From: Rhodothermus sp.
Lineage (GTDB): Bacteria; Bacteroidota; Rhodothermia; Rhodothermales; Rhodothermaceae
Assembly (NCBI GenBank): GCA_026989375.1
Contig: JALSJJ010000179.1
Location: 1 to 52,901, forward strand
Length of the DNA: 52,901 nucleotides
Direction: 5' to 3'
The position numbers and the translations under genes are program-made. Below the pieces are notes generated by a model. The model searched no databases. It saw only the letters and a program-made list of their open reading frames with translations, and had not been told where the DNA came from. The first letter of the stretch is position 1, and each line of letters starts with the position of its first letter. Shown one piece after another: positions 8,676-33,798 of this stretch.

Positions 8676-8688
8676 AGGTCTACGCAGT

Positions 8689-10407: not shown

Positions 10408-10412
10408 GAGAA

Positions 10413-11825: not shown

Positions 11826-11927
11826 CGGAAACGGGTTGCTTGCGCGTAACGGTTACTGTACGGAAGACCTTCCTCTTTATCTGGAGACTGCATGTCCGCG
11901 TCCGTGCAGTACGCCTCATCCGGCGGA

Positions 11928-13262: not shown

Positions 13263-13335
13263 TTTTCACGTCGGGTTGGTTTAGCCTTCGAAGATTTCTC
13301 TGCAGCACCCCGGTCCTCAACGGCCGTGCGCTCCG

Positions 13336-14987: not shown

Positions 14988-14996
14988 GGCGCCGCG

Positions 14997-16405: not shown

Positions 16406-17272
16406 CTATCTGTTCTTGAGGAGACCGAATAGATAATGGCGGGGTTCTGGACGATCAGGTGCCGGCCGAAGGGCTTGTTGCCAGGCGCGAGGGGCGGCTT
16501 TGGACGTTCTCAGTTGCTGCAGGGTACGCCCCAGGCTATAGTGGGCGGCCTGATGCCAGGGTGCTTCCCGCACTACAGCTTCAGGCAAGGAGTGGGCCTA
16601 CGCCGGTTGTTCGGTCAGCAGCAGATTGCCCCGGCGATCGCAGGCCATTAGACTTTGCGGGGCCAGCTCACGAGCGCGATGAGCTACCCGGAGCGCCTCG
16701 GCATAACGGCCTTCGTCTTCGCACAGTTCGGCCAGATCGAGCCAGGCTTCGGCATAGGTGCTGTCGTACTGAAGAGGCGGTCTTCAGCGCCAGACGTGCA
16801 CTGTCGGGTTGCCCCAGCTCCAGATAAGCCCGACCGATGCTGCGCCACGAGAGGGCATTGGGATGCCGGATCAGCTCCAGCCGGAACAGCACGATCGCCT
16901 TACGAAACCGCCCCAACGGGCCGCATTGTTGGCCAAGTTGTGCCAGAGATCCGGGCAGGCCGGTGCCTGCCGGGCCACCAGCCAGTACAGGCTGTCGGCT
17001 GCGTCAAGCAGCCGCATGTGCGTGTAGACGCGGCCTTTGAAAAAATAAAACATCTGGATGTTCGGGCTGAAGCCCCGTGGCACTATCTGCCAGTTGAACG
17101 GCGCGGATAAACTGTTGCCGCTGAAATGCCTGTTCGGCCCGGGCCAACAGCGCCCGGGTCCGGGGCAGAAGAGGGGGAGAGACCGGGGGGCTTTCTGGCA
17201 GGCACTGAACACGCTCAGCCCAAGGATCAGCCACCCGATCCGGCCGATGCGGCAGTGCCCTGTCATTTCCAT
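16406..17272 (-). pseudogene. Decayed TPR lipoprotein gene with four frameshifts and one in-frame stop
   Basis: Joining segments of two minus-strand frames recovers a TPR lipoprotein. It has a signal with lipobox-like VFSAC, then RALLARAEQAFQRQQFIRAV, then GRVYTHMRLLDAADSLYWLV, then KAIVLFRLELIRHPNALS, then TYAEAWLDLAELCEDEGR, a TAG at 16598-16600, and SLPEAVVREAPWHQAAHY to a stop at 16406. Frame changes fall near 17190 (C5/C6 runs on the minus strand), 17045 (A6), 16920 and 16775. The original ATG overlaps the stop of the UnbV gene by one base (TAATG), so it was translationally coupled to it. Sequencing error could explain single indels, but four shifts plus a stop favour real decay. Confidence 0.8.
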
Positions 17273-19005
17273 TAGAAATCAGCCTGCGCCAGCGTTCCCA
17301 GGGGCTGTCCTGTTCCTTCCACCAGTTGCACTTCCTGGTTGGCTTCAAACGGACCAAAGCGCTCGCGCAGCCCGGTTGCCCATTCGACCTCGACGGCTTC
17401 CACCCGCCGCGCGGTCCCCAGTCCAAACGTCAACGTCTTTTCGGAGACAGCCAGGTAGCTGCCTCCCGTGCGGACGCGTTGCTCCAGCCGTCGTCCCCCC
17501 ACCCACACCATTACCCGGCTGCTGATGCCCTGGGGATGGCTTTTCGTGCCGACGAGCTGCACCCGCAGATAATGCCCGGCTCCTCGGGTATCATTGCGCC
17601 ATAGATGTACCGGTCCGTTGTTTTCGATCACGAGGATGTCCACCAGCCCATCCCGGTTAAAATCACCGTAAGCAGCCCCACGTGCGACTATTGGTTGCGT
17701 CAGCACCCCCCCGGCTTGGGGAGCGACATCCTCGAAGAAACCATAGCCGTCATTCAAAAAGAGATGGGGCGGTTGCGCATAGGTGATGCCATCTTGCACG
17801 CGCTCAATCTCGTCCTGTACGTGTCCGTTGGCGGCAAACAGATCCAGGTCGCCATCCAGATCGACGTCGAACAGAAACAGCCCGAAGGTGAGCGTCTGCA
17901 GGCTCTGTCGGCCGATCTTTGAAACGGCAGCGCGATCGATGAACAGGTCATTGCCGATGTAGCGGTAAACGCCGATCATTTCTTTGGAGAAGTTGCCCAC
18001 GAACAGGCTGATCTGGCCGGTTGTGTCGACCACGCCCGCATCGAGCCCCATACCGGCACGCGCTTTTCCATTTTCATCATAGGCTACCCCACTGGTCAGC
18101 CCGATGTCTGTAAAAGTCCCGTCGCAATTGTTTCGGTAGAGTTGATCCGGCTGTGTATCGTTGGCCACGTAGAGATCCGGGCATCCATCGCGGTTGTAGT
18201 CGGTTTCGGCAACCCCCAGCGTTTTGCCGGGTGCTGGTACGAATCCGGCCTTTTCACTCTCGTCGGTAAACGTCCCATCGCCGTTGTTACGGAAAAAGTA
18301 GGGCGGAACGCCCTCATAGGCTTCAGGCGTGCAGTAGCCCTTGGTTTTCTCATCAAGCGAACACCAGATGTCGGTCTCTGGCGTCCAGTAGACGTAGTTG
18401 CCCACAAACAGGTCCAGATCGCCGTCGCGGTCCGCATCGAAGAAGATGGCCGAGCTGCTCCAGACCGAGTCGCCGGCCACCCCGGCTTCATCGGTCACGT
18501 CCGTAAAGGTGCCGTCACCGTTGTTGCGAAGCAGGATATTCTTCCAGAGCGTGGTAAAGTATAGATCTTCATCGCCGTCGTTGTCGTAGTCGGCGGCCGT
18601 GATCCCGATGCCATAGGCGTCCAACTGCCCAAGTCCTGCCTCGTCGGTCACGTCCGTGAACGTACCGTCACCATTGTTGCGAAAGAGCCACAGCGGCCGT
18701 ACCCAGTCTTTGTCGCTGTAGCCAGGCCAGACTCCCCCGCCCACCAGCACGATATCGAGCCAGCCGTCACCGTTGTAATCGAAAAAGCCACATCCCGGTC
18801 CCATAGATTCGGGGAACCACTTCTGCCCGAACGCCCCTGTCTCATGTCGGAAGGCCCCCAGTCCGGCCGCCTCGGTCACATCGGTAAAGGCAATCTGCAC
18901 GGTCACTATGGAGGCCGTTTCCTCTACGGGTTTTCGCACCTGCTCGGCACGCTCGCAGCCGACCATCAGGAGCGCCAGCAGGCTATATACCATGCATTTT
19001 CTCAT
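17272..19005 (-). CDS. CRTAC1-type FG-GAP/VCBS repeat lipoprotein with C-terminal ASPIC/UnbV domain
   Basis: 577 residues. The signal peptide ends LLMVGC (Cys17), a lipobox. At least six calcium-binding-like DxDxDG loops follow, for example DYNGDGWLD, DYDNDGDEDLY, DADRDGDLDLF and DVDLDGDLDLF, the FG-GAP pattern of a beta-propeller. The C-terminal ASPIC/UnbV domain starts at GAGHYLRVQLVG and ends with a block on WATGLRERFGPFEANQ. Function is unknown; the family occurs near TPR proteins, cytochromes and SusC/D in many bacteria. It is coupled to the multiheme cytochrome upstream (4-nt overlap) and to the TPR pseudogene downstream (1-nt overlap), so all three formed one translational unit. Confidence 0.92.
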   Translation of the reverse strand: MRKCMVYSLLALLMVGCERAEQVRKPVEETASIVTVQIAFTDVTEAAGLGAFRHETGAFGQKWFPESMGPGCGFFDYNGDGWLDIVLVGGGVWPGYSDKDWVRPLWLFRNNGDGTFTDVTDEAGLGQLDAYGIGITAADYDNDGDEDLYFTTLWKNILLRNNGDGTFTDVTDEAGVAGDSVWSSSAIFFDADRDGDLDLFVGNYVYWTPETDIWCSLDEKTKGYCTPEAYEGVPPYFFRNNGDGTFTDESEKAGFVPAPGKTLGVAETDYNRDGCPDLYVANDTQPDQLYRNNCDGTFTDIGLTSGVAYDENGKARAGMGLDAGVVDTTGQISLFVGNFSKEMIGVYRYIGNDLFIDRAAVSKIGRQSLQTLTFGLFLFDVDLDGDLDLFAANGHVQDEIERVQDGITYAQPPHLFLNDGYGFFEDVAPQAGGVLTQPIVARGAAYGDFNRDGLVDILVIENNGPVHLWRNDTRGAGHYLRVQLVGTKSHPQGISSRVMVWVGGRRLEQRVRTGGSYLAVSEKTLTFGLGTARRVEAVEVEWATGLRERFGPFEANQEVQLVEGTGQPLGTLAQADF

Positions 19006-21731
19006 GGTTTACTGCGTTCGTTTTGCCAGGCCAGCGCCGGCATGCGCTGTAACGATCCGCGGTCGTCCACCCGATGCAGTTCGTGTTCGTGGATAGGCTG
19101 TGCTTCGCGATTCGCCATAGGATGTCGGTGCTTGTAGGGCGTGCTCCAGGCCGAAGCTTCTTCGTCTACTTTGTGATATTCGTAGCGGGCTTTGGCGGCC
19201 CGGAATTCCTCGGTACGTCCCAGCGCGCCCAGCGTTAGCATCCGGTTGTAGAGGCCGCCCAGGTCCTCCGGATCGATCTCCAGAATACGATCGAACCAGC
19301 GAAGTGCCTCTTCGTAGCGGCCGGAAAGGTAATGGATGCGTCCGATTTCCTGGAGCAGCACCCGGTCGCGGGGATAGCGAGCGACCACCTGCATCCACTC
19401 ACGCAGGGCCTGGTCGTATTCGCCGCGGCGCTGATAGATCTTGCCTCGGAAATAAGCGGTTTTCAAATAGCCAGGACGCCGCCGCTCGGCTTCAGCCAGC
19501 GCCTCCATGGCACGATCGAGCTGCCCTTCGGCAATCAGAACACGCGCCACGTTAATGGGTCCTTCAGGATTGTCGGGTGCCAGTCGACTCACCTGCTCGA
19601 AGGCTTCCAGAGCCCTACGCGTATTGCCCTCCAGAAAGAGGCCGATGCCGTAGTCATTCCAGCGTTCCCAGAGCGGTACATTGCTTTCGGGTACCTGTCC
19701 GGCTACGCGCCGTGCCGAAGCAATGACGGTTACCGGCAACTCCGGTGCCTGGCGGTCTTTGGCCAGAATCCACCGCCGATAGTCCACTTCAGGCGTAGCC
19801 AGTGAGTCGGGCTGGCCGGGTGCTACCTGTCCCCGGAATGTCCAGTTATGGAAGTACCACTTGAACTTGCGATGCTTGAAGGCAACGGTTAGCTCGGTGA
19901 TAGGACGGCCAGGTGGCACAGTAAACCGGTAATGAACCGTACGGGCTGTGCCGGGATTGATCACGTTCACATAAACCGGCGTGCGGAAATCGTGCGGATT
20001 CCGCTTGTTGGCTTCCTGTCCGGCCCGGTCGACGAACACCGCTCCGAAGAAGTGCGCGGTAGAATCAACGCGGCCTTCCGGATCGAGCAACCCGGAGGCT
20101 ACCACAGCCTGTCCCTCACGGTCGCGTCCGATCACCTCCAGCCAGAGCTCGTTTGAGTCGTTCGTGCCACCGGGCAGGGCATGTCCCACCTTTCGGTTGC
20201 GCACGACCACGGTCAGTTCTACCTGATCGCCGGGCCGAAGCACCGGCATCGGCTCGTCGGGGCCATAGGTGTGGCCATTCACCCGTACCCGAAACAGATC
20301 GACCGTGGCAATGGAGTCCTGCAAAAACGCCTGCGTCGCCCGAAGCTGTTCATCATGTCCTTTGAGAAACGGCAGCGCTGTATTTGCGGCCAGAAAGCGG
20401 TGACTCCGTACGAAGCCGCCGTCGTTTCCCTGATCATTGGAGGGGACCAGGGGCATGTGGCAGTCGATGCACGTGCGTGGTTGTTCGGGCAGATAGAAGG
20501 AGCGGACGGTATTGCCCGAGACGCCACTCATCTGCCAGGCGTCGTATTCGTTCTGTCCACGTAACCAGCGGTAGTAATTGACCGCGGGTGGCAGCCCCAC
20601 TTTGTGGCAACTGCTGCAGAATTGTTCGGTGCGGTGCACCGGACGGAGCATCGCTTCCCGGTGGGGTTCTGGCTTGGCGAGGATAAGCTGGCGGTGTAGC
20701 CACTGTCCGATCGGATTTGTGCTCCGGGCAAACGGATATTCGTCCGGTTGGGCGATCACGTAGCGTCCGTTGCCTCGCAGGTCGCGCAGTCCCGTAATCG
20801 CATGGCAGGAAAGACAGGTGATCCCCTCATGTGCTGTCCAGTGTGTGGTGTCAAGCGGCATGCGATGCCCAAAGCGTCCGGAAAAGAGCATCACCGGATC
20901 ATGACAGGAGGCGCACCAGCGGGCGGCTTCAACCGGCCGACGCTGGAGCATGTATTCGATGGAGCGACGGTAATATGGATTGTTGAACGAAGAAAAGTGA
21001 TGGGCGGAAGCTGCCCACTGTGCGTAAATATCGGGATGGCAGCCTGCCTGTCCACACGTTCGGGAGCCCGACAACGTAGCCTCTTCAAAGAACTTTTCAT
21101 GGGCCAGCAATGCTTCAGCAGCCGCCAGAGGGTTTTCGGAACCGGTATCGAGATAGACCGGGTCGGGTTGTTTCAGCCAGGGCACCAGAAAGAAGGCAAT
21201 GGAAACTACCACCCCTGCACTGAAGGTCAGCGTCAAGGGATGGTACAGCAACCGCCTCCAATGCCGGACAGCTTCCCCTCTGGCCAGCAAGAATCGAAAG
21301 CGAACGCCCCGTTTGAGCGACACGTGTACAAGAAAGCCCAGCAGTGAGGTGAACATGGTCACCACATGGAGCGTCAGCAGCCAGCGCCGATTCAGCGTGG
21401 CTTCGCCCCAGAATAGCAGGATGCCGCTCAGCAGCAGCAACAACATGGAAAGCGCCGTAAACGCGCCAGCCGCCGCAGCGCGAAGATTCCAGCGCAGCGG
21501 CATCGTACGGAGGTGCGTCAGCAGAAACAGCAAAAACGGAATGATCAAGAGCAGCCCGAGCCCAACATGCAGCAGCACGTTGCTCATATAGATGAGCGCC
21601 GTTGAGCGATCAAATAGCACGAGCACCAGGCTGTTAAGCAGCAGTACGAGAAAGCCCCCCAGCAGGATACTCACCAGCCGACGTTGTCCGTGAGGCAGAT
21701 GAAATAGCTGCCTATTACGCGAGCGCCGCAT
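19002..21731 (-). CDS. Membrane-anchored pentaheme cytochrome c with TPR C-terminus
   Basis: 909 residues. Five hydrophobic helices fill residues 17-190. Two of them carry spaced histidines (His55/His73 and His122/His136) that could bind b-type haem. The periplasmic part has five haem c motifs: CGQAGCH (226-232, CX4CH), CASCH (273-277), CLSCH (306-310), CSSCH (372-376) and CIDCH (421-425), in a cytochrome c554-like arrangement. A beta-sandwich-like section follows (about 440-670), then about four TPRs (690-850) and a His-rich tail. It probably moves electrons between the quinone pool and a periplasmic partner. It is coupled by a 4-nt overlap to the UnbV lipoprotein. Confidence 0.9.
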   Translation of the reverse strand: MRRSRNRQLFHLPHGQRRLVSILLGGFLVLLLNSLVLVLFDRSTALIYMSNVLLHVGLGLLLIIPFLLFLLTHLRTMPLRWNLRAAAAGAFTALSMLLLLLSGILLFWGEATLNRRWLLTLHVVTMFTSLLGFLVHVSLKRGVRFRFLLARGEAVRHWRRLLYHPLTLTFSAGVVVSIAFFLVPWLKQPDPVYLDTGSENPLAAAEALLAHEKFFEEATLSGSRTCGQAGCHPDIYAQWAASAHHFSSFNNPYYRRSIEYMLQRRPVEAARWCASCHDPVMLFSGRFGHRMPLDTTHWTAHEGITCLSCHAITGLRDLRGNGRYVIAQPDEYPFARSTNPIGQWLHRQLILAKPEPHREAMLRPVHRTEQFCSSCHKVGLPPAVNYYRWLRGQNEYDAWQMSGVSGNTVRSFYLPEQPRTCIDCHMPLVPSNDQGNDGGFVRSHRFLAANTALPFLKGHDEQLRATQAFLQDSIATVDLFRVRVNGHTYGPDEPMPVLRPGDQVELTVVVRNRKVGHALPGGTNDSNELWLEVIGRDREGQAVVASGLLDPEGRVDSTAHFFGAVFVDRAGQEANKRNPHDFRTPVYVNVINPGTARTVHYRFTVPPGRPITELTVAFKHRKFKWYFHNWTFRGQVAPGQPDSLATPEVDYRRWILAKDRQAPELPVTVIASARRVAGQVPESNVPLWERWNDYGIGLFLEGNTRRALEAFEQVSRLAPDNPEGPINVARVLIAEGQLDRAMEALAEAERRRPGYLKTAYFRGKIYQRRGEYDQALREWMQVVARYPRDRVLLQEIGRIHYLSGRYEEALRWFDRILEIDPEDLGGLYNRMLTLGALGRTEEFRAAKARYEYHKVDEEASAWSTPYKHRHPMANREAQPIHEHELHRVDDRGSLQRMPALAWQNERSKP

Positions 21732-21746
21732 ACGTTCATCGTATGT

Positions 21747-22198
21747 TTAAAAGTCAGGCTGCCATGCCACTTCAGCCACATACTGTCGCAAGGTAGCATC
21801 CTGCGAGCGATAGCGCAAGACCTGTAACCGTGCCCGACGTGCCGCTTCGTACTGATGCCGCCGGGCAGTACTACGCCCATGACATCTGCCAGCCTCGAAT
21901 CATGTTGCAGCAGCCGGTAATAGCACTGCACGACATCAAGGGTATCACCCAGCAGTAACGACAGATTGGCTCGATCATTTTGCGACGTTGGGTTGTTCGG
22001 CTCCCAGAAAATGGCCACAGCCAGCGCTTTTCGTGCCTCCTGCAATTGCCCCGCCCGAATCAGCAACCTGGCCAGCTTCCGCCAGGAGCGCGCATGTTGG
22101 CTCTGGTAGGCATGTCGCATTGCCTGGCCGATCTTGCCAGAGAGTTGCCGAATCTGCTGCGCACGTTCCAGAAAAAACTGCCCTGCTCGTCCAGCCTT
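21747..22198 (-). pseudogene. 5'-truncated, frameshifted TPR gene remnant
   Basis: A TPR-like helical segment reads from 22198 (just inside an in-frame TAG at 22199-22201) through ARSWRKLARLLIRAGQLQEA and AIFWEPNNPTSQNDRANLSL to about 21870. There a one-base shift moves coding into another frame, which continues RRHQYEAARRARLQVLRY and ends QPDF at a TAA (21747-21749), 16 bp before the cytochrome start. No plausible start codon or signal peptide remains. It is a second decayed TPR gene of the same cluster as 16406-17272. Confidence 0.7.
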
Positions 22199-22218
22199 CT
22201 ACCTTACCTCCGGTAGCT

Positions 22219-22284
22219 TCAGAAGGTAAGTTGAAGTCCGAGACGCTGTACGTTGTCGAAGGTACCGAACGAGGTATAGACAGC
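22219..22284 (-). pseudogene. C-terminal scrap of an outer-membrane beta-barrel protein
   Basis: Directly after, and in the same frame as, the stop of the large FG-GAP gene (22285-22287) come 21 codons reading AVYTSFGTFDNVQRLGLQ plus LTF and a TGA at 22219-22221. Alternating polar and hydrophobic residues ending in Phe are the hallmark of the last strand of TonB-dependent receptors and other barrels. A natural stop upstream and a TPR remnant immediately downstream suggest a deletion scar. Confidence 0.5.
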
Positions 22285-25200
22285 TCAGCGCCCACGCCGC
22301 TGCAGCGCAAGTGCTATAACGGATGTGTCGTTACGGGCTGCCAGCAACCAACGTTGACCATCTGGACGTTGTAGCCAGGCAAGACGACGCACCTGGCCCC
22401 GTAGCCTTAGTCCAGAAATGCCTGGTCGTAAGGGCGTAAGTGTCCCTGCTGCCGTCTGCACCAGCACGACACCCGGGCCATGGCCGTAGTGCCCCAGCGC
22501 CGGATTGGCCTCGTCAAAGTTGCCGGCCGCGATCACGTCCGGTAGCCCGTCCCCAGTTACATCGCCGACGTGTAGCGCACGCACCGGAAACCATTGCGCC
22601 GGCTCGGGGAGTGGATGCCACGTGAACTGTCCCCGCCCATCGTTCTCCACCCAGACCGACGCAAAGGTGTAAGCAGACAGAACCGTTGCTTGCTGCACAA
22701 CCTCCTCTCCGAAAAGTGCCTGCAGCGTTCGCGCTCCCCAGGCATGGTAGCTTTCAAACCGCCGGCCCAGCTCTGGGAAACGCTGCGCCAGCAGATCAAT
22801 CGTTGCCACCGGATAAGCGTTTTCATCCCAGTAAGCTACCAGCACTGGATCGGTCTGTCCATCCCGATCGAAGTCGTGCAGATAGAGCTGTGCCGGTCGC
22901 TCGGGTGTTGCTTGCAGCGTCGCATTTAATCCCAGATTACCCGCCACGAAATCCAGGTCTCCGTCGCCGTCCAGATCAGCCGCCTGCACGCTAAACCACC
23001 ACCCTTCCGTGTCTGGCAGCGGGGTGGGGGCCAGCCGACCATCTGGCTGCTGAAAGAACACAGTCAGGGGCAGCCACTCGCCCACCACCAGCAAATCCAG
23101 CCGTCCATCGCCGTTGAAGTCGCCCCAGGCGGCATCGGTCACCATCCCCACGCGGGCCAGCGCAGGCGCCCGTGTTTCGGTAACCTCCACGAAGGTGCCA
23201 TTTCCCTGATTTTCCAGCAGGTAACTGCGGGGAGTTTCTCCGTAGCGACGGGCTTCGACCCGTCCTCCCACGAACAGGTCCAGATCGCCATCCCCATCGT
23301 AATCGGCCACCCGTACGCAACAGCCGTTCGCGAACAGGTCTGGCAGGGCTTGTTCGTCGCGGACGAACTGCCCGCTTCCATCGTTGCGGTAGAGCCGATC
23401 CCGCAGCGCTTCGGCCTGTCCCCACCACTCGTTGCCCGCACTGACCACGTACAGGTCCAGATCACCGTCACCGTCCGCATCAAAAAAAGCAGCATCTACG
23501 TCCTCATAGCGCCTTTCGGCTTCCCAGAGCGCTTCATTGGCGGGATGAAAGGTTCCGTCGCGTTGCTGCACAAGCAGTCGGGCTGGCTGCCATTTGGCCC
23601 CACCCAGAAACACGTCGTCCAGGCCATCCCCGTTCACGTCACCCACAGCCAGCGCCGGGCCTTCGCGCGAGAGGCGATGAGGCTGGAGGGGTTCGCGAGT
23701 AAAATCCACAAACGCATTTTCTTCGTGACGATACGCCAGCGCATTGGGCACCTCTCGAAAAAGAGGCAAAGGGGCTGCCGGCGGGCGATACAACGCCTGT
23801 GCCTCAGCCTGGCGAAAGACCAACGTCTGATCGGCTGCCACATGACGGCGCACCTCGTAGCGACCGTCAGGCCAGACGACTACTACCGAATCCACGCGTG
23901 TGTGCCCCCCCAGCCCGAAGTGCAGCACTGGCTCGACGGACGAGAGCCAGCCACGTACCGGCTGCTGCTCGCGAAGCTGAAGGCTGTCGCCGTAATGCAC
24001 AGTTACCCGGGCGCCGATACCCCAGCGATTCATGCCTTCGCCTTCCAGCACCACCCGTAGGTAGTGGGCACCGGTGCGCTCGCGCGTGTGGTTACGGTAC
24101 ACAGCCGCCGGTGCGTTGATCTCGCTGGTTACCAGGTCCAGATCCCCATCGCGGTCCAGATCCACGTACACCGCGCCGGTGGAGAAGCCAGGCTGCCCCA
24201 GTCCCCATGCCTGGGCCCGGTTTGTGAAGGTTCCGTCTCCGTTGTTATGAAAAGCGAAATTAGGTTGGGGCACCTGCGGCATGCGTTGCAGCAGGTCCTC
24301 TAAAAGCTCCGGCGTAATGCCCCGGGCCAGGGCTTCCTGAATTTCAGGTTGACTGACGTAGCGGATATAGTCCAGATCATTAGGTCGATGATAGATGCCG
24401 TTGGTCACAAACAGGTCCTGATAACCATCGTTGTCCAGGTCGGCCAGCAGAGCTGCCCAGCTCCAGTCGGTGGCGGCTATGCCGGCCTGGAAGGCAACGT
24501 CCACAAACTGCCAGGCACCCAGGTTACGCAACAGCACATTATGGGGATACTGAGGGTAATACCCGAACTGTCGTTTGCGCTGAAATAGCGTGAAAGACTC
24601 CGGCCCATCAGCTGTTTTGAAAATAACGGGGTCAAAGGGCATCATGTCGAGCACCACCAGATCCGGCAGCCCGTCGTTGTTAATATCCCCTGCATCTACC
24701 CCCATGGAAGCCTGTGAGGTGTAGGCTGTAGCTATGCGGAGCACATCAGTAAAGGTGCCGTCGCCATTGTTGCGGTAGATCCGGTCGTCCTCGTGGAAAT
24801 CGTTGGCCACATACAGATCGGGCCAGCCGTCCAGGTTCAGATCGCTCACCACGACCCCCAGCCCATAACCAATCAGTCCGTCTACGATGCCGGCTGCGGC
24901 AGTGACGTCCACAAAATGCCCGTTATCGTTGCGCAGCAGGCGATCGCTGGCGTTTGGATCAAAGCGATGGCGGAGACTTTCGGCCGGACCAAAGCTCTCG
25001 TCTGTGTGCAGGGCGCGGTTCAACAGGTACAGGTCCAGATCCCCATCGCGGTCATAGTCGAAAAACACGGCCTGCGACCCATAGGCGGCAATATCCAGCC
25101 CGAATTCGGCGGCAGCTTCTCGAAAGCGTGGAATGCCTTCGGCGTCCGGTCCTTGATTCAGGAAGAGCTGGTTGTGCCCGGTGCGGTCCAGGTAGTTACT

Positions 25201-25590
25201 GAAAGTGATCACGTAGAGGTCGAGCCAGCCGTTGCCGTCCACGTCGGCCACCGCGACGCCCGTGTTCCAGTTGCCCGATCCGACCACCCCGGCTGTTTCA
25301 GTTACATCCTCAAAGCGCCAGTTGCCGCGATTCAAGTACAGGCGGTTGGGTCCCTGGTTAGCGACAAAGTACAGGTCTGGCCAGCCGTCCCCGTTGAAAT
25401 CGCCGGCCGCCACTCCTGCTCCGTCGTAGTAATACATATAGTTGATGATATTGAAAGCCGTATCGAAGGGCACCTCGTTAACGAAAGTGATCCCCGTTCG
25501 ATCGGGATCCATGCGCTCGAACAGCGGCGGTTCGGCAGGCCGGCAGGCGGCCAGCCCGGCAAACCAGAACAGCAACCAGGTTTTTCGCAT
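22285..25590 (-). CDS. Large CRTAC1-type FG-GAP/VCBS lipoprotein with internal ASPIC/UnbV domain (paralogue 2)
   Basis: 1101 residues. The signal peptide ends FAGLAAC (Cys16), a clear lipobox. The N-terminal half contains about seven FG-GAP loops (DFNGDGWPDLYF, DVDGNGWLDLYV, DYDRDGDLDLYL, DLDNDGYQDLFV and others). An ASPIC/UnbV domain in the middle starts GAHYLRVVLEGEG. About seven more loops follow (DADGDGDLDLYV, DYDGDGDLDLFV, DFNGDGRLDLLV, DLDGDGDLDFVA), suggesting two beta-propellers joined by UnbV. The loops probably bind calcium. Function is unknown. It starts 5 bp after its paralogue's stop, and the two are similar along their whole length, so they arose by tandem duplication. In Bacteroidota such proteins often follow SusC/SusD. 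Confidence 0.93.
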   Translation of the reverse strand: MRKTWLLFWFAGLAACRPAEPPLFERMDPDRTGITFVNEVPFDTAFNIINYMYYYDGAGVAAGDFNGDGWPDLYFVANQGPNRLYLNRGNWRFEDVTETAGVVGSGNWNTGVAVADVDGNGWLDLYVITFSNYLDRTGHNQLFLNQGPDAEGIPRFREAAAEFGLDIAAYGSQAVFFDYDRDGDLDLYLLNRALHTDESFGPAESLRHRFDPNASDRLLRNDNGHFVDVTAAAGIVDGLIGYGLGVVVSDLNLDGWPDLYVANDFHEDDRIYRNNGDGTFTDVLRIATAYTSQASMGVDAGDINNDGLPDLVVLDMMPFDPVIFKTADGPESFTLFQRKRQFGYYPQYPHNVLLRNLGAWQFVDVAFQAGIAATDWSWAALLADLDNDGYQDLFVTNGIYHRPNDLDYIRYVSQPEIQEALARGITPELLEDLLQRMPQVPQPNFAFHNNGDGTFTNRAQAWGLGQPGFSTGAVYVDLDRDGDLDLVTSEINAPAAVYRNHTRERTGAHYLRVVLEGEGMNRWGIGARVTVHYGDSLQLREQQPVRGWLSSVEPVLHFGLGGHTRVDSVVVVWPDGRYEVRRHVAADQTLVFRQAEAQALYRPPAAPLPLFREVPNALAYRHEENAFVDFTREPLQPHRLSREGPALAVGDVNGDGLDDVFLGGAKWQPARLLVQQRDGTFHPANEALWEAERRYEDVDAAFFDADGDGDLDLYVVSAGNEWWGQAEALRDRLYRNDGSGQFVRDEQALPDLFANGCCVRVADYDGDGDLDLFVGGRVEARRYGETPRSYLLENQGNGTFVEVTETRAPALARVGMVTDAAWGDFNGDGRLDLLVVGEWLPLTVFFQQPDGRLAPTPLPDTEGWWFSVQAADLDGDGDLDFVAGNLGLNATLQATPERPAQLYLHDFDRDGQTDPVLVAYWDENAYPVATIDLLAQRFPELGRRFESYHAWGARTLQALFGEEVVQQATVLSAYTFASVWVENDGRGQFTWHPLPEPAQWFPVRALHVGDVTGDGLPDVIAAGNFDEANPALGHYGHGPGVVLVQTAAGTLTPLRPGISGLRLRGQVRRLAWLQRPDGQRWLLAARNDTSVIALALQRRGR

Positions 25591-25595
25591 TGTTT

Positions 25596-28500
25596 TTATT
25601 GGCGTACCACAAAAAACCGAGGAGTGTCGTCGTTACGGGCTACCAGAATCAGCGAGGGCTGGCCCGGACGATTCAGCTTCTGGATATCTCGCACCTCACC
25701 CCGAACAAAGAAGCCACTATCACGTGGTAACACTGCTGTAAAGTGTCCGCTTCCATCCCCCCTGAGCCACAGGCCGTAGATTGCCTCCATCAGGCCCAAG
25801 CTGGTCTGAGCCCAGCGAAAATTGCCCCCGGCCAGTACGTCCAGATGACCATCGCCATCAAAATCATCGACCAGTAGCCCGTAGATTGGCGCCCATTGTG
25901 CTTCCGGGGGCAGCGGATGCAGACGGAAGCGACCGTTTCCGAGATTTTCTACATACAGACTACGCAATTCTCGAATTTCCAATACAGCCGCTCCATCTAA
26001 TTCATCTGGCTGCATGAAGTCCTCCAGCATCATGCGGGCATACGTAGCATGTGAAGGGATGCGAGCGTTCAGGAAAGGCAGCTGACCGAGCAGTTCGCGG
26101 CGCAGATTCAGCGGGCGGTGCCGGAGTCCGGTCGCTGTGCTTTCGGGATGGGCCAGCAGGTGATCGGCAAAGCCGTTCTGATCAAAGTCCTTGACAAAAA
26201 GCCGAAGCGGTGTTTCCGGAGACGCTCTCAGGGGCGTATTCAGCCCCAGATTCGTGGCGATGAAGTCCGGATCGCCATCGGCATCAAAGTCGGCCACAGC
26301 CACGCGGTGCCAGATGCCCGAAGTAGTGACCAGGTCGGGCAGCTCCCAGCGTTCCAGCCGACCGTTCCCGATATTGCGGAAGATGGTAAGCGGCATCCAT
26401 TCGCCCACGACGAGCAGGTCGAGCCGTCCGTCGCCGTCAAAGTCGGTCCAGGCCGCATCGGTGACCATCCCGATCCGGGATAGACCAGGCGCAAGGGCAT
26501 CCGCGACGTTTACAAAGCGGCCGTGGCCATCGTTCTGCAGCAGCAGGCTTTTGGGCGCCATGCCGTAGAACCAGGGTTCGATACGCCCCCCGACAAACAG
26601 ATCAAGGTCGCCGTCGCCGTCATAGTCGGCAACAGCCACAGGTCCGCCGCTGCTGCGGATTCGAGGTAGATGATCTACGGCTTTCCGGAAGCGGCCCCGG
26701 CCGTCGTTCAGGTACAGCCGGTCCTGCAGCGCCGGTGTTCGGGGAGCATAGGCATTGCCCCCGCTGACCACGTACAGGTCCAGGTCGCCGTCCCCGTCCG
26801 CATCGAAGAACACAGCGCCTAAGTCTTCCGAGAGCGCGTCGGCGGCGAACAGGGCCTCGTTGGTGCGTATGAACCGGCCGTCGGCCTGCTGCACGAAGAG
26901 CGTGCCGGGAGATCCCTTAGCGCCCCCGATATAGAAATCGTCGCGGCCATCACCGTTCACGTCGCCCACGGCCACCCTGGGTCCCTCGCGGGAACGCATC
27001 CATGGCATGAGTCCTTCCCGCAGGAAGTCTGCGAAAGCGTCCTCTTGATGTCGATAGTCCAGAGCCACTTGCTCCGTTACGTCGGTAAAGCGCGGAGTCG
27101 CACGCGCCGGCAGGAGGGGAAGATCGGGCTGGCCGAGCGTTGCCTCCTCCTGGCGAAATACCAGTCGCTGGTCAGCAATTACCTGACGGCGCACCTCATA
27201 GCGGCCGTCAGGCCAGACCACAACCACCGCGTCGACCGTGTCGTGCGTCCCCAATCCAAAGGTCAGCACCGGGTCGACCGACGACTGAAATCCTCGGTTG
27301 GGCATCTGCTCCTGATAGAAGCGCTGGTTGCCTGCCAGCACGGTTACCTGGGCTCCGATGCCCTGGGTGTTGGGCGGTATGCCGATCAGTTGCACCTGCA
27401 GGAAATGTCCGCCGAGGCGCTCACGTGCCCGGTTACGATAGACGCGAACCGGACCGTTTACATCATTGACGATCAGATCCAGATCGCCATCGCCATCCAG
27501 ATCCCCGTAGGCGGCGCCGCTGGAAAAACCGGGCTGTCCGAGCCCCCATTCCTGCGCCCGGTTGGTGAAGGTGCGGTCGCCGTTGTTGCGAAAGGCGTAG
27601 TTTGGCAGGGGATGGGAGGGCATTTTTCGGATCAGCGTCAGGTAATCGACCCCTTCCTCGCGGATGACCGCCCGCATGGTTTCTTCGGCCGACAGGTATT
27701 CGAGATAATCCTGGTCGATCACATCCCAGAAGATGCCGTTAGCCACGAAGATGTCTTTGTAGCCATCCAGATCGACATCAAAGATCAGCGCCGCCCAGCT
27801 CCAGTCGGTAGCGGCCACTCCGGCCCACATCCCGATTTCGCTGAAGGTGCCGTCGCCGTTGTTGTACTGCAGCGTGTTGCGGGTAAACTGATGATAAAAT
27901 CCGTTTTCCACCTTGGTCTGGTAGAGCATCCACCCTTCGAAGGTGGTGGTTGTTTTCAGCCGCGCGTCGTCTTCGGGCAGCATGTCCGTCACGAAAAGCT
28001 CTGGGAAGCCATCATTGTCCAGGTCGGCAGCATCCGCCCCCATGGAGGAGAGACTGATAGCGGCCATGGCCTCCTCCAGGACTTCCCGGAAGGTGCCATC
28101 GCCCTGGTTCAGGTAGAGGTAATCGCGCTCGAAGAAATCGTTGGAGATGTACAGATCGGGCCAGCCATCGCGGTTCAGGTCAGCCACGGTCACGCCAAGC
28201 CCAAAGGCAATTTCCGGTCCGTAGATGCCGGCCTCAGCGCTGACGTCCACGAAACGACCACCGTCATTCCGGTACAGGCGGTCTCCCCCTTCGTGGTTGC
28301 GTTCGTGACGCGTGTTGCGAAAGTCCAGGCTGATGATGGGCCGCATCGAATTGTTCAGCACGTAGACATCCAGGTCGCCATCCCGATCGTAGTCAAAAAA
28401 AGCAGCATGGACCGAAAAGCCGGTATCGGCCAGTCCCAGCTCGGCAGCGGCTTCGCGAAAGCGCGGGATACCGGCTTCGTCCGGCCCCAGGTTCAGGTAG

Positions 28501-28964
28501 AGCTCGTTGGCGCGAAGGCTATCAGCAAATGGTCCGGCATAACACACGTACAGATCGAGCCAGCCATTGCCGTCTACATCGGCTACAGCCACACCTGTAG
28601 CCCAGGGCTTTGTGCCGGCCACTCCTGCCTTTTCGGTAACGTCTTCAAAATGCCAGTTGCCCCGATTCAGATACAGCCGGTTTGCCCCCTGATTGGCCGT
28701 CAGAAAGACGTCGAGGTGCCCGTCTCCGTTAAAGTCACCCAGCCCAACGCCGCCGCCGTTGTAGAAATTGCGGTAGATAAAGATGTTGAATTCCTGGGTT
28801 TCGCGCAGGCGATTTTCAAAGCGAAGGCCCGTCTGCCCGGGCGACAGCCTTTCGAATAGCGTATCGGCCGATTCATCGGCGGTGCGACAGCCGACCAGCG
28901 CCAACAACAGACCCAGTGCTATGCCCCTGCGAAGCAAAACAGCACCCGCTAATACTGACTGCAT
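25596..28964 (-). CDS. Large CRTAC1-type FG-GAP/VCBS lipoprotein with internal ASPIC/UnbV domain (paralogue 1)
   Basis: About 1122 residues from the start at 28964, chosen because the protein then opens with a signal peptide ending LLALVGC (Cys26). An ORF start at 29051 would run through the terminator hairpin. Architecture matches its neighbour: FG-GAP loops (DFNGDGHLDVFL, DVDGNGWLDLYV, DYDRDGDLDVYV, DLNRDGWPDLYI, DLDGDGDLDLIV), central ASPIC/UnbV domain starting GGHFLQVQLIGI, and a second loop series (DADGDGDLDLYV, DYDGDGDLDLFV, DFDGDGRLDLLV). It is probably surface- or periplasm-anchored. It follows SusD but is separated from it by an intrinsic terminator, implying partial read-through or its own promoter. 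Confidence 0.93.
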   Translation of the reverse strand: MQSVLAGAVLLRRGIALGLLLALVGCRTADESADTLFERLSPGQTGLRFENRLRETQEFNIFIYRNFYNGGGVGLGDFNGDGHLDVFLTANQGANRLYLNRGNWHFEDVTEKAGVAGTKPWATGVAVADVDGNGWLDLYVCYAGPFADSLRANELYLNLGPDEAGIPRFREAAAELGLADTGFSVHAAFFDYDRDGDLDVYVLNNSMRPIISLDFRNTRHERNHEGGDRLYRNDGGRFVDVSAEAGIYGPEIAFGLGVTVADLNRDGWPDLYISNDFFERDYLYLNQGDGTFREVLEEAMAAISLSSMGADAADLDNDGFPELFVTDMLPEDDARLKTTTTFEGWMLYQTKVENGFYHQFTRNTLQYNNGDGTFSEIGMWAGVAATDWSWAALIFDVDLDGYKDIFVANGIFWDVIDQDYLEYLSAEETMRAVIREEGVDYLTLIRKMPSHPLPNYAFRNNGDRTFTNRAQEWGLGQPGFSSGAAYGDLDGDGDLDLIVNDVNGPVRVYRNRARERLGGHFLQVQLIGIPPNTQGIGAQVTVLAGNQRFYQEQMPNRGFQSSVDPVLTFGLGTHDTVDAVVVVWPDGRYEVRRQVIADQRLVFRQEEATLGQPDLPLLPARATPRFTDVTEQVALDYRHQEDAFADFLREGLMPWMRSREGPRVAVGDVNGDGRDDFYIGGAKGSPGTLFVQQADGRFIRTNEALFAADALSEDLGAVFFDADGDGDLDLYVVSGGNAYAPRTPALQDRLYLNDGRGRFRKAVDHLPRIRSSGGPVAVADYDGDGDLDLFVGGRIEPWFYGMAPKSLLLQNDGHGRFVNVADALAPGLSRIGMVTDAAWTDFDGDGRLDLLVVGEWMPLTIFRNIGNGRLERWELPDLVTTSGIWHRVAVADFDADGDPDFIATNLGLNTPLRASPETPLRLFVKDFDQNGFADHLLAHPESTATGLRHRPLNLRRELLGQLPFLNARIPSHATYARMMLEDFMQPDELDGAAVLEIRELRSLYVENLGNGRFRLHPLPPEAQWAPIYGLLVDDFDGDGHLDVLAGGNFRWAQTSLGLMEAIYGLWLRGDGSGHFTAVLPRDSGFFVRGEVRDIQKLNRPGQPSLILVARNDDTPRFFVVRQ

Positions 28965-28985
28965 GTTGTACACCTGTCCTCCCCC

Positions 28986-29033
28986 TAAGAAAACACCGCC
29001 GGAGCCCTGCCGCAAAGCAGCGCTCCGGCGGTG
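28986..29033 (-). terminator. Intrinsic terminator or attenuator after susD
   Basis: A perfect 12-bp stem, CACCGCCGGAGC (28994-29005) with GCTCCGGCGGTG (29022-29033), and a 16-nt loop. On the minus strand it is followed by TTTTCTT. It lies between the SusD stop and the first FG-GAP gene and could lower downstream expression. Confidence 0.8.
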
Positions 29034-29058
29034 CATCATCGTGCAGTTCACCGGCGCA

Positions 29059-30675
29059 TCAGTAGCCCGGATTCTGGACCAGGTTCGGGTTGGCGTCGAG
29101 CTGTTGCTGCGGGATGGGCAACAGCAGCACTTTGGGATCGCTCTGCGGCTTGAACTGGTAGGCTCGCGTGAATTTGCCGTGGCGGATCAGGTCCTGCCGC
29201 CGTTTAGCTTCCCAGGTAAACTCGAAAAGCCGTTCATTCAGGATGGCTTCCCGCATCGCCTCCTTGGTGGGATAATCCGCCAAACTGATTGGCTTGTCCG
29301 GTTCAAAGACCCGATTGCGCACGGCATTAATCAGGTCGACCACCTCCTGCGTCGGTCCGTTCAGTTCGTTAAGCGCCTCGGCTTTGATCAGGTACATTTC
29401 GGGCAGCCGGAACCATGCATAGTCATTCCCATGATCCCCGCCTACATGGTTCGGGTCCGGCCCATACTTGAGCACGCGTACTCCTTCGTATTCGGTAGCA
29501 TTGAAGATGTTTTGAATCTCTGGCGTATAGATCAGGGGATTGCCGGCCCGGTCCGTAAGCGGCTCACCCTGCGAATAGCACTGCCGGCCAATACAATTGC
29601 CCCGAGGCTCGGCATACTGCTGTCCCTCGAGGAAGATGGTCTTTCGCAGGTCGTCATCATCAAACAGATTATATGTTTCTGCCAGGATGGCATGGCCATT
29701 CCAGGGTGAGGGCTCCAGCTGGAAGTAGTGGAGCGTTCGCATCTGGAAGTTCATGCCCAGCCCGGGTTCGGGCAGATGCTGCGTGGCAAAGATGATTTCC
29801 GGCGAGTTTTCGTTGTTGGGAAGGAAATTCTGGAACCACTCCTCTCCCTCGGCTAACCGGAAATAGCCGGAGTTGATCACGTTATCGGCGTGCTGAATAG
29901 CCGCCTGACAGGCGTTCTGGCCGCCACTTGTCTGCACATCCATGCAGGAGTTATAGCCATTGGGATCCAGCTCGGTGCTGTTTTTGGTAAACACGCCGGC
30001 ATTGAGATACAGGTTGGCCAGCAGCGCCTCTGCCACCCACTTGGTCACCCGGCCTGGTAACGGTGGGGTTTCAGGAAGGTTGTCTCGTGCAAACAGCAAC
30101 TCACTCTCCACAAAACGGAAGACCCTACTGCGCGGCTCTGTCGCGGGGGGGTTGTTGGGATCCACCACGTATTCGTCATCCCCTACAATCGGGACATTGC
30201 CAAAGAGATCTAACAGGAAGTAGTAGTAGAGGGCCCGCAACAGCCGCACCTCGGCTTCCAACTGCGCTTCATTCGGCGCCTCAATTTCGGCCAGGGTCTG
30301 GAGCAGCCCATTTGCGCGCGCAATACCGGTGTATAGATCCACCCAGGCACCGTTAAAGTCCACCTGCGTGGGTTGGAAGTTGTGCTCATGGAGGTTGAGC
30401 CAGCGGCGGTCGTCAAACCAGTCCTGCCCGCGCGTTGGCACCACCGTTTCGTCGGTGGTTACCTGACTCATCGTCCAGTAGCTCCACTCCAGGGCGCGCA
30501 ACTGCGCGTAGATAGGCGCTAACGCGGCGGTGATTTCCTTTTCGGTCCTATAGAACTTGTCCGGAGTGATGACCGAGAATGTCTCTTCACTCAGATCCGT
30601 ACACCCTCCGAACAACAGGAGCGCCAGCAAGGCAACCCCTGCCACGCGCCGCGTATTATGATTCCATCGCATCAT
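29059..30675 (-). CDS. RagB/SusD family outer-membrane nutrient-binding lipoprotein
   Basis: About 538 residues from 30675. This start gives a compact signal peptide ending LLLFGGC (Cys25); the longer frame from 30720 would add an unusual leader. The N-terminal part has the SusD helical TPR-like region (YTGIARANGLLQTL), and the C-terminal RagB/SusD domain includes RLPEMYLIKAEALNELNG and ends IPQQQLDANPNLVQNPGY, a hallmark of the family. SusD lids the SusC channel and captures oligosaccharides at the cell surface. It lies 66 bp after the SusC stop. No glycoside hydrolase is encoded between SusC/D and the FG-GAP genes, so the ligand is not obvious. Confidence 0.95.
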   Translation of the reverse strand: MMRWNHNTRRVAGVALLALLLFGGCTDLSEETFSVITPDKFYRTEKEITAALAPIYAQLRALEWSYWTMSQVTTDETVVPTRGQDWFDDRRWLNLHEHNFQPTQVDFNGAWVDLYTGIARANGLLQTLAEIEAPNEAQLEAEVRLLRALYYYFLLDLFGNVPIVGDDEYVVDPNNPPATEPRSRVFRFVESELLFARDNLPETPPLPGRVTKWVAEALLANLYLNAGVFTKNSTELDPNGYNSCMDVQTSGGQNACQAAIQHADNVINSGYFRLAEGEEWFQNFLPNNENSPEIIFATQHLPEPGLGMNFQMRTLHYFQLEPSPWNGHAILAETYNLFDDDDLRKTIFLEGQQYAEPRGNCIGRQCYSQGEPLTDRAGNPLIYTPEIQNIFNATEYEGVRVLKYGPDPNHVGGDHGNDYAWFRLPEMYLIKAEALNELNGPTQEVVDLINAVRNRVFEPDKPISLADYPTKEAMREAILNERLFEFTWEAKRRQDLIRHGKFTRAYQFKPQSDPKVLLLPIPQQQLDANPNLVQNPGY

Positions 30676-30741
30676 GGCTGTTCGATTAGGCACGTTTGAT
30701 AGACGTTCGACTGATCGCATTGCTCTCGTTGCTTGTCCGTG

Positions 30742-33700
30742 TTAGAAGCCCAGGCTGACCCCCAGCGTGAAGCTTCGAGCCCGTGGATACTGGGCGTAGT
30801 CAATGCCCAGCGAAGCCAGCCCGGCATTGATGTTCACCTCTGGATCGTAGCCCGAGTAAGGCGTAATGACCAGCAGGTTCTGGCCCGTGACGTAGATGCG
30901 GGCACGCCGCACATAGCGTCCCCAGACACCGCCCAGATTGTTGAAGGTATACCCGATCGTAACGTTGTCCACGCGGAGGAAGGAACCATCTTCAATCCAC
31001 CGGGACGAGAAAATAGCCGGCTCATCGAGGGCATCCGGGTCATCCAGCGCCGCTTTCAGGAAGTTCTGGTTCTGCAGCACAGCGCTCTTTGTCTGATAGA
31101 CCAGGGCAGTGTTGTTGAAGACATCACGGCCCTGCTCTCCTCGGATAAAGATGTTGATGTCGAAGTTACCCCAATAGATATTGGTGCGAATCCCGTAGGT
31201 GAAGTCCGGCTGCGCATTGCCAATGATGGTGCGATCCGCATCGGTAATCTGTCCGTCCCCATTGAGATCCCGGAACTTCTGGCGACCGTTTTCGACGCCC
31301 TCGAAAATCCATCCATAGAAGGTACCTACCGGCTCGCCAGGAATCAGCCGCTGGGCAAAGGTGCCGGACTGACCGCGCCCACTGACAATCCCGGTTACGA
31401 TGAACTCATGGGGGCCCAGGCTAACCACCTCATTTCGGTTAGCACTGAAGACCAATCCGAAGAGCACGCTCAGATTCGGTCGGTCAACCGCCAGGGCATC
31501 GAGCGAGAGCTCAAAGCCCCGATTGCGGGTCTTGCCGATATTTTCGATCCGGGTAGGCACGGGCGCCGGTTGTGGCACGGGGATCTCCAGCAAGAGATTA
31601 CTGGTGTTCTTGACGTAATACTCGATCGTACCGGAGAACTTGCCGTTGAGCAGGTTATAATCAAGCCCGATGTTAAAGGTCGCTGTTTCCTCCCACTTCA
31701 GGTTTGGATTTGCATAGTTGACCGGAGCAAATCCGGTAAATGCCGTCTGATTGAAAACGGCCTGAAGATCCTGACGGGCCCCAAGCTGCGCCAGCGACAG
31801 ATAGTTTCCGATTTCCTGGCTTCCCGTAATCCCATAGCCAACCTTCAGGCGCAGGTCTGTAAGCCAATCCAACCCCTGCAGGAAAGGCTCGGCACTCAGA
31901 CGCCACGCCGCGGAAACCGCGGGAAATAGCGCCCACTTGTTGCCCTCACCGAAACGTGAGGAGCCATCATAACGGAGCACGCCCGTCAGGTAGTATTTAT
32001 TCTGGTAGTTATAGTTCAGGCGCGTAAAGAACGAAACCAAGCGGCTTTTTTCTTTGAACGAGAAGCTTCCCTCCTTTACCAGCTGAGCACCTGCCTGCAC
32101 CGCGTTATACAACGTAGCATCTGTTACATAATCACGGCCCTCCACGCCGAATTCCTCTGTCATATACTCGTTGAACTCATAGCCCCCTAACAGCTCCACA
32201 TTGTGCACCTGTGCAAACGTACCACGGTAGGTCAGGTAGCTCTGGAAGGTCATGGATGAATGCTCCCGGTTGCGCAGCAGGGCACGTCCACCAAACTCGG
32301 CACCGGTTGGATTTTGCTGAGGGAAATACTGACGGCGGCTTGACTGGGCCCGATCTGCGCCGAAGTTTACCTTAACCGTCAGTCCTCGCATCAGGTCCAG
32401 CTCGGCCGCAATGTTCCCCAGCGTCCTCGTCGTTTTGGCAATATCCTCAACCTGCTCGGCCATCGCCACCGGGTTACGCACCGAGGTGCGGCCGTCTGAA
32501 ACCTCAAAATAGCCATCGGTAGCCGGCGTGCCATCCAGATTGCGTTCTGCATAAATGGGATAGGTAGGATTCATCTGGAACACATTCGAAAGCACGCCGC
32601 CTTCAAAGCCGGCCGTCTGGTTATAGGGCAACAGGTCATCAAACTGGAATGACCCCGTCAGGTTAAGCTGCAAACGGAGCCGTCCATCAAAGGCCTGATG
32701 ATCCGCATTGAGGCGTCCCGTCAGCCGCTCCAACCCAGAATCGATCACCTGGCCCTGCTGATTCAGGTAGCTGACCGACGCACGGTACCGCGTCTGACTG
32801 GTCCCCCCTGAAAAAGCCAGGTTATGGAACTGGGTGATCGCCGTACGCATCACAGCCTCTTCCCAGTCCGTATTGGCATTCCCCAGCACCTCGCGGGCAC
32901 TGGCCGGCAGATTCCCGGCTTGAATCTGCTCTTCCACGAACCGCCGGTATTCCTCCCCATTCAGCACATCCATCTTTTTATAGGGAGAGGCTGCGGTGAT
33001 ATACGCGTCGTAGTCTACCTGCAACTGCCCCTGACGTCCTTTTTTCGTTTCTATCAGAATGACGCCGTTAGCACCCCGCGACCCGTAAATAGCCGTGGCC
33101 GCCGCGTCTTTCAGGACCGTGATCGACTCAATGTCGTTCGGGTTAATCAGGCTCAGCGGGTTACGCGGAGGTGGCGGCGCCCCATTGATACCGGCCCCCT
33201 GCGGCATCAGCGGTACGTTATTAATCGGGACCCCATCGATCACAATCAGGGGCTCGTTACTGGCGCTGATCGAGGTACCACCCCGCAAGCGAATGTTTAA
33301 CCCCGCCCCCGGCTCGCCATTGTTTGCGAAAATAGTCAAGCCCGCTACGCGCCCCTGAAGTAGCTGATCCGGTGAAATGTAATTGCCCTGATTCACATCA
33401 TCAGCATTGATCATGGCCACCGATCCGGTCACGTCTTCACGCCGCTGCACGCCATACCCCACTACGACAATTTCTTCCAGCACCTCAACGGTGGGCTGCA
33501 TGCGCACGTTGATGACCGTGCGATCCCCTACAACCTCCTGCACCTGCTCATAGCCTACAAACGAGAAAACCAGCACGGCCTCCGGACCGGGCACTTCGAT
33601 CTGATAGCGTCCTTCTACATCGGTCGTTGTGCCCGTCATGGTGCCCAGCACCACGATGTTAACGCCGGGCAGCGGTTCACCGGTCGAGGCATCGGTTACC

Positions 33701-33798
33701 GTCCCGGTTACCGTCCGGGGTTGTCCGATGGCAACGCTTACACTCCAACACATCAGCAACAACCCCAACCAAAGGCTCCGTTGATGCAGCTTGCTCAT
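30742..33798 (-). CDS. SusC/RagA family TonB-linked outer-membrane receptor
   Basis: About 1018 residues from the ATG at 33798, where a signal peptide begins (MSKLHQRSLWLGLLLMCWS). The longer frame to 34008 is rejected because it would place the LacI-type palindrome inside the gene. Next come a carboxypeptidase-like domain (VTGTVTDASTGEPLPG), the SusC box EEIVVVGYG with the TonB plug, and a 22-strand barrel ending SFTLGVSLGF with a terminal Phe. It imports glycans or other large ligands with SusD using TonB energy. It is the first gene of the susC-susD-FG-GAP set. Upstream control by a LacI-type operator is likely. Confidence 0.95.
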   Translation of the reverse strand: MSKLHQRSLWLGLLLMCWSVSVAIGQPRTVTGTVTDASTGEPLPGVNIVVLGTMTGTTTDVEGRYQIEVPGPEAVLVFSFVGYEQVQEVVGDRTVINVRMQPTVEVLEEIVVVGYGVQRREDVTGSVAMINADDVNQGNYISPDQLLQGRVAGLTIFANNGEPGAGLNIRLRGGTSISASNEPLIVIDGVPINNVPLMPQGAGINGAPPPPRNPLSLINPNDIESITVLKDAAATAIYGSRGANGVILIETKKGRQGQLQVDYDAYITAASPYKKMDVLNGEEYRRFVEEQIQAGNLPASAREVLGNANTDWEEAVMRTAITQFHNLAFSGGTSQTRYRASVSYLNQQGQVIDSGLERLTGRLNADHQAFDGRLRLQLNLTGSFQFDDLLPYNQTAGFEGGVLSNVFQMNPTYPIYAERNLDGTPATDGYFEVSDGRTSVRNPVAMAEQVEDIAKTTRTLGNIAAELDLMRGLTVKVNFGADRAQSSRRQYFPQQNPTGAEFGGRALLRNREHSSMTFQSYLTYRGTFAQVHNVELLGGYEFNEYMTEEFGVEGRDYVTDATLYNAVQAGAQLVKEGSFSFKEKSRLVSFFTRLNYNYQNKYYLTGVLRYDGSSRFGEGNKWALFPAVSAAWRLSAEPFLQGLDWLTDLRLKVGYGITGSQEIGNYLSLAQLGARQDLQAVFNQTAFTGFAPVNYANPNLKWEETATFNIGLDYNLLNGKFSGTIEYYVKNTSNLLLEIPVPQPAPVPTRIENIGKTRNRGFELSLDALAVDRPNLSVLFGLVFSANRNEVVSLGPHEFIVTGIVSGRGQSGTFAQRLIPGEPVGTFYGWIFEGVENGRQKFRDLNGDGQITDADRTIIGNAQPDFTYGIRTNIYWGNFDINIFIRGEQGRDVFNNTALVYQTKSAVLQNQNFLKAALDDPDALDEPAIFSSRWIEDGSFLRVDNVTIGYTFNNLGGVWGRYVRRARIYVTGQNLLVITPYSGYDPEVNINAGLASLGIDYAQYPRARSFTLGVSLGF

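Follow-up and report, generated by a model that had tools for sequence, protein, structure and literature searches.

The window analysed here is the whole of a 52,901-nucleotide contig (C179; GenBank JALSJJ010000179.1) from a Rhodothermus sp. genome of 3.07 Mb in 257 contigs, and our subject is a run of its genes encoding a SusC/SusD receptor pair, three lipoproteins of the UnbV/CRTAC1 family and a multiheme cytochrome c. These genes are two systems and not one: module A, composed of a glycoside hydrolase (GH), SusC, SusD and the large lipoproteins UnbV1 and UnbV2, and module B, to which the cytochrome and the small lipoprotein UnbV3 belong. We consider it probable that module A is a SusCD uptake operon with UnbV1 and UnbV2 as its dedicated partners, and that module B is a separate electron-transfer unit lying beside it as the result of a deletion. 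An earlier note on this DNA had read the same genes as one surface or periplasmic complex for capturing or oxidising a ligand. UnbV proteins occur commonly among bacteria, and to our knowledge they have no firm function.

Organization of Module A

All the genes named in the earlier note (SusC/SusD, three UnbV/FG-GAP lipoproteins, and a cytochrome with tetratricopeptide repeats, TPRs) are present on the minus strand, in one direction and in the order that it gave, and only the two separate TPR genes are not intact (Table 1). We class module A as a polysaccharide-utilisation-type operon, a variant of the SusCD loci. In fact, a SusC of the SusC/RagA family adjoins a SusD on one strand, with 21 bp between them, the distances from SusD to UnbV1 and from UnbV1 to UnbV2 are about 91 bp and 5 bp, respectively, and the cluster contains a carbohydrate-active enzyme, the GH. 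Among PDB sequences, the one nearest to this GH belongs to a glycogen debranching enzyme of archaeal type (7vma, E-value 3e-13), and GH homologues are linked to SusCD-UnbV genes in G001, G003 and G006 and occupy other positions in G008, G022, G032 and G033. A scan for regulatory sites returned 6 promoter-like sites against 6.9 by chance and 22 terminator-like sites against 16.3, and was not used in this reading.

UnbV1 and UnbV2, each of about 1100 residues, have FG-GAP repeats flanking the UnbV domain on both sides. In these two proteins and in UnbV3 both the UnbV_ASPIC domain and the FG-GAP repeats exceed the Pfam cut-offs, as expected of the UnbV/CRTAC1 family, and all three carry an N-terminal lipobox. 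The some fourteen DxDxDG loops that had been ascribed to each large protein are found in UnbV1 when the motif is relaxed to Dx[DN]x[DNS]G, by which UnbV2 has 13; the strict motif occurs 9 and 7 times, respectively.

Linkage of Large UnbV Genes to SusCD

The link between large UnbV genes and SusCD is real and broad. Gene positions obtained by Pfam searches in 40 relatives were compared with the expectation for random placement, separating large (1000–1320 amino acids) from small (540–830 amino acids) UnbV proteins; the UnbV counts are among the matches listed, the genomes are relatives of one another, and a SusD can go undetected by PF07980. A SusD lies within 10 kb of 35 of the 56 large UnbV genes (0.95 expected) and of 1 of the 80 small ones (0.90 expected), and when G001–G006 are left out the large class gives 22 of 43, in 13 genomes, against an expected 0.52. 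The cytochromes, instead, associate with small and not with large UnbV genes: 14 of the 80 small genes are linked to a c554-type cytochrome (0.90 expected), and the large genes for which this is true (4/56) are all at two fused loci, in the window genome and in G006. Reading frames of 1600–2800 amino acids with UnbV matches were considered as informative fusions and discarded, because only UnbV profiles matched or the long frame lay on the opposite strand.

For a wider sample, named genomes were scanned with a UnbV profile, and 80 loci from Bacteroidota, Calditrichota, Gemmatimonadota and KSB1 were ranked by similarity to UnbV1, with SusCD ignored in the choice. At least two large UnbV genes are present in 43 of the 80 loci. 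Among the 53 having at least 6 kb of upstream sequence, 45 have a SusD within 6 kb, in 33 cases immediately upstream and on the same strand; at the SusD density of Arenibacter C-21 (39 SusDs in 5.67 Mb; PMC5064120), random placement would put a SusD within 6 kb in about 8% of cases. The association of UnbV genes with SusC/SusD, whose absence from other genomes the earlier note had named as the outcome that would undo its proposal, is borne out by both surveys for the large UnbV proteins. Furthermore, the SusDs linked to UnbV group together in a tree built from 70 SusDs (12 label changes, compared with 21.3 when the labels are shuffled, and none of 500 shuffles as low), and one clade of 34 rows holds 31 of them together with 2 whose SusCD is divergent from UnbV. 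The SusD of the window is placed in the UnbV-linked clade.

The genes flanking SusCD-UnbV have mostly carbohydrate functions that vary by genome, such as GH65, GH127, GH37 trehalase, GH13, GH30, sulfatase, FGGY kinase, SSF, LacI and 3-keto-disaccharide hydrolase. Since the enzymes change from genome to genome and SusCD and UnbV are constant, UnbV would be a part of the uptake machine and not a substrate-specific enzyme. A family of about 196 amino acids, often with a lipobox, also adjoins large UnbV genes in 17 loci (L076:5132-5710, L078:9346-9954 and 15 more), and two of its members were scanned and had no Pfam match. We found no published link between UnbV and SusCD in the full-text open-licence literature, which is weak evidence of novelty.

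Module B and Its Junction with Module A

The arrangement in related genomes accounts for the present proximity of the two modules. In G001–G004, the genes that stand between the UnbV1-UnbV2 pair and the cytochrome encode a TonB-dependent receptor that is not a SusC, a PorZ-like protein matching a sorting domain weakly, a member of the PorV family and a TPR protein. UnbV3 and another TPR gene come after the cytochrome. G005 has the same gene set between the modules, partly masked by overlapping frames in simple gene calls. The junction measures 94 bp in the window against about 7.7 kb in G004, with about 88% identity on both flanks, so that a segment of about 7.7 kb was lost and module B was brought next to module A. 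Gene spacing also indicates two units: 553 bp with gene debris separate UnbV2 from the cytochrome, and the cytochrome and UnbV3 overlap by 4 bp. An assembly artefact is unlikely, since remnants of the PorV-family gene and of the first TPR gene (416 amino acids when intact, in G004) lie at the junction and the remainder is colinear with G004. The decay of the TPR genes, already recognized in the earlier note, is real and consists of frame-shifted remnants; single frame-shifts in a metagenome-assembled genome could still be sequencing errors. G006 lacks the intervening segment as well, although the window shares more identity with G004, and the deletion may therefore have happened twice.

The cytochrome and UnbV3 are intact in the window, are 83–96% identical in other Rhodothermus genomes, and form a pair conserved in the genus. 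The cytochrome has four CXXCH motifs and one CX4CH motif, and its N-terminus has five hydrophobic segments, recognized by eye without a predictor, which suggest an inner-membrane anchor. A partial precedent for module B is an FG-GAP/CRTAC1 gene found beside hydrazine-synthase-like subunit genes (PMC12758564), in which a CRTAC1-type gene likewise adjoins the genes of a multiheme redox complex; however, the cytochromes differ, and no hydrazine-synthase subunit was identified in module B.

Some further observations concern this module. The succession of its receptor, PorZ-like and PorV-family proteins (L036:85-3393, L043:2299-5701) hints at a link to type IX secretion. A second pair formed by a small UnbV and a multiheme cytochrome is present in the same genome (L049:1151-4931) and is 37% and 33% identical to the pair of the window. 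A sugar-oxidation cluster, mostly on the minus strand, adjoins module B at 5926-16262, and does so in relatives as well; it contains Gfo/Idh/MocA oxidoreductases, two TIM-barrel isomerase-like genes, a GMC oxidoreductase with gluconate-2-dehydrogenase subunit 3, a 3-keto-disaccharide hydrolase and a nucleoside-symporter-like gene of the major facilitator superfamily.

Table 1. Genes and gene remnants of modules A and B in the window.
Feature	Position	Strand	Evidence
Module A: GH, secreted, (alpha/alpha)6-type, 867 aa, no assigned family	34522..37125	-	PF22422 48 bits; weaker PF17389, PF04685, PF06202
Module A: SusC TonB-dependent receptor	30742..34008, probable start near 33801	-	TIGR04056 845 bits, TIGR04057
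Module A: SusD lipoprotein, acidic export signal (CTDLSEE)	29059..30720	-	PF07980, PF14322; lipobox and acidic residues
Module A: UnbV1, large FG-GAP + UnbV + FG-GAP lipoprotein	25596..29051, probable start 28967	-	PF13517, PF07593
Module A: UnbV2, tandem paralogue of UnbV1, about 52% identical	22285..25590	-	PF07593 and FG-GAP above cut-offs; alignments A1, A2
Remnant: last 20 codons of module B PorV-family gene	22222..22281	-	tblastn, G004 PorV residues 325-344, 80% identity
Remnant: 3' part of module B TPR gene 1, frame-shifted	about 21750..22187	-	tblastn, G004 TPR1 residues 268-416, 72-77% identity, two frames
Module B: multiheme cytochrome c, c554-like, probably membrane-anchored, C-terminal TPRs, 909 aa	19002..21731	-	PF13435, TPR families, heme motifs
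Module B: UnbV3, small CRTAC1-type FG-GAP + UnbV lipoprotein, one FG-GAP region	17272..19005	-	PF13517, PF07593
Remnant: module B TPR gene 2, frame-shifted	16421..17266	-	tblastn, intact G003 and G004 copies, 46% identity, several frames

Elsewhere in the window, an OprB-type carbohydrate porin is encoded on the plus strand (41701-42882), with its neighbours on the opposite strand, and two adjoining genes encode S26-family signal peptidases (42891-45185).

The Fold of UnbV1

The AlphaFold model of UnbV1 is confident and multi-bladed (predicted local distance difference test, pLDDT, 94.7; predicted template modelling score, pTM, 0.93). Its top Foldseek match is murine CRTAC1 (PDB 9etn; E-value 2.6e-26, TM-score 0.70 over the target), which covers the first half of UnbV1 and is also its best match by sequence; the comparison, made with the UnbV1 model alone, assigns a CRTAC1-like fold to this protein. 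The remaining matches among the top 50 have poor TM-scores, and we read the list as a general multi-propeller resemblance of the model. In UnbV1, as in CRTAC1, the UnbV domain comes after an FG-GAP propeller, whereas UnbV1 and UnbV2 differ from it in having an extra C-terminal FG-GAP region, in being lipoproteins and in being tied to SusCD. As far as we know, CRTAC1 is not an enzyme.

Vanadium Iodoperoxidases near Large UnbV Genes

In many Bacteroidota, large UnbV genes are accompanied by a PAP2 gene whose product is closely homologous to the Zobellia galactanivorans vanadium iodoperoxidase (PDB 4CIT/4USZ; E-values 2.8e-139 and, for locus L056, 9e-150). The peroxidase gene occurs in 26 of the 121 loci examined (L051, L054, L055 and L056 among them), always on the UnbV strand, and in 21 of the 80 named large-UnbV loci. 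A search that started instead from the iodoperoxidase, in 148 Bacteroidota genomes, gave 40 loci (L155–L194), all with the peroxidase, and in 29 of them a large UnbV gene lies within about 8 kb, mostly adjacent to it. Three simple active-site patterns are all present in 13 of the 26 peroxidase sequences, and the catalytic residues were compared one by one for L056 only. Unlike these Bacteroidota, neither the window genome nor the genus members searched (G001–G006) have a homologue of the Zobellia-type enzyme. The oxidation of a ligand, as proposed for these genes in the earlier note, finds no support in Rhodothermus, and it is related operons elsewhere that often include a haloperoxidase. We are not aware of a published link between large UnbV proteins and iodoperoxidases in the open-licence literature. 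That the large two-part UnbV proteins mark an undescribed SusCD branch of Bacteroidota, Calditrichota and Gemmatimonadota, in many members of which uptake is coupled to halide oxidation through a vanadium iodoperoxidase, is an idea that we put forward tentatively and regard as unlikely.

Proposed Mechanism and Alternative Explanations

On the explanation that we favour, module A would perform outer-membrane uptake of the polysaccharide-utilisation kind, most likely of an oligosaccharide, with SusC as the TonB-driven channel, SusD as the surface lid and the GH as a secreted hydrolase. UnbV1 and UnbV2 would be dedicated partners of one SusCD lineage, namely outer-membrane lipoproteins with calcium-stabilised propellers, which may, beside the channel, bind or retain the ligand or act as a scaffold for enzymes. 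In module B, the membrane multiheme cytochrome and the small UnbV3 would form an electron-transfer unit of their own, put next to module A by the deletion. For the levan and dextran utilisomes of Bacteroides thetaiotaomicron (PMC7618045), likewise, one cluster encodes the SusC channel and the SusD lid along with further lipoproteins and a glycoside hydrolase; in module A the accessory lipoproteins are instead large FG-GAP/UnbV propellers, a class that mostly lacks the acidic export signal.

Several points weigh against this explanation. The gap of several hundred bp between the GH and SusC in the window suggests that the GH may have its own transcript, the named loci were ranked by similarity and are no random sample, and the SusD tree is a quick one with several long branches, whose label shuffles ignore near-copies. 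Some neighbours of SusCD-UnbV have no carbohydrate function (amidase, PAD-like deiminase, carbon-nitrogen hydrolase, DUF1501/1553, haloperoxidase). The substrate class, the handling of a ligand by UnbV and its contact with SusCD, and with them the molecular role of UnbV, are points that we infer, beyond the gene content, the linkage statistics, the missing segment and the predicted fold. Finally, the acidic export signal, counted as two or more acidic residues among positions +1 to +6 following the cysteine in sequences with a recognisable lipobox, is present in 41 of 47 SusDs (87%) and in 38 of 118 large UnbV proteins (32%), which makes surface exposure of the latter doubtful and leaves the surface part of the complex proposed in the earlier note uncertain. 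The large UnbV proteins may face the periplasm; the count favours that side and is not decisive for Rhodothermus, the signal having been described experimentally in other Bacteroidota (PMC5080379).

That SusCD, the three UnbV lipoproteins and the cytochrome form one integrated surface system that captures and oxidises a ligand is very improbable, and as a general system it is refuted by synteny and by the survey. It would agree with the common direction of all these genes, with the presence of UnbV in both modules, with the same arrangement in G006 and with the 5 of 75 cytochromes that lie within 10 kb of a SusD against 0.9 expected; these five, however, are limited to three genomes of one genus, none of the 75 in the 40 relatives lies within 5 kb, and the proximity of large UnbV and cytochrome follows the loss, in the window genome and in G006, of genes that G001–G005 keep. 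A system shared by the cytochrome and the large UnbV proteins is not supported, and the partner of the cytochrome is the small UnbV type. A second SusD-cytochrome locus (contig C90) was also rejected as an operon: the two genes are separated by several others, among them a glutamine synthetase read from the other strand.

The two other alternatives keep the link to SusCD and change the role of UnbV. SusCD could feed the large UnbV proteins, which would then be enzymes or would process ligands in the periplasm and would not bind them at the surface, the tandem pair degrading or modifying an imported oligosaccharide. The scarcity of the acidic export signal would fit this possibility, as would the invariant residues outside the calcium loops in alignment A2, for example a TDWSW segment (W389, W391) that might be an active or binding site; we consider it unlikely, because the operons already hold dedicated, changing hydrolases, UnbV is constant across predicted substrates, and the UnbV1 model has CRTAC1 as its top match and no enzyme with a good one. 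Alternatively, the core partner of the large UnbV proteins could be the vanadium iodoperoxidase, with SusCD feeding an oxidative or halogen-handling process and the Rhodothermus operon having lost the peroxidase. The frequency of large UnbV genes at iodoperoxidase-like loci, the shared strand and the close match to the Zobellia enzyme speak for it, but the named loci that carry the peroxidase are far fewer than those with SusD, half of the peroxidase sequences do not pass all the active-site patterns, and the gene is missing from the searched Rhodothermus genomes, so we judge this alternative quite improbable, more so than the preceding one.

Significance

The tie of one size class of UnbV proteins to one SusCD lineage provides a concrete place in which to seek the function of the large UnbV proteins, and Rhodothermus marinus, which has the same genes, is culturable. 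Should the tie to the iodoperoxidase be confirmed, it would point to a role for the two families that is testable in cultured flavobacteria.

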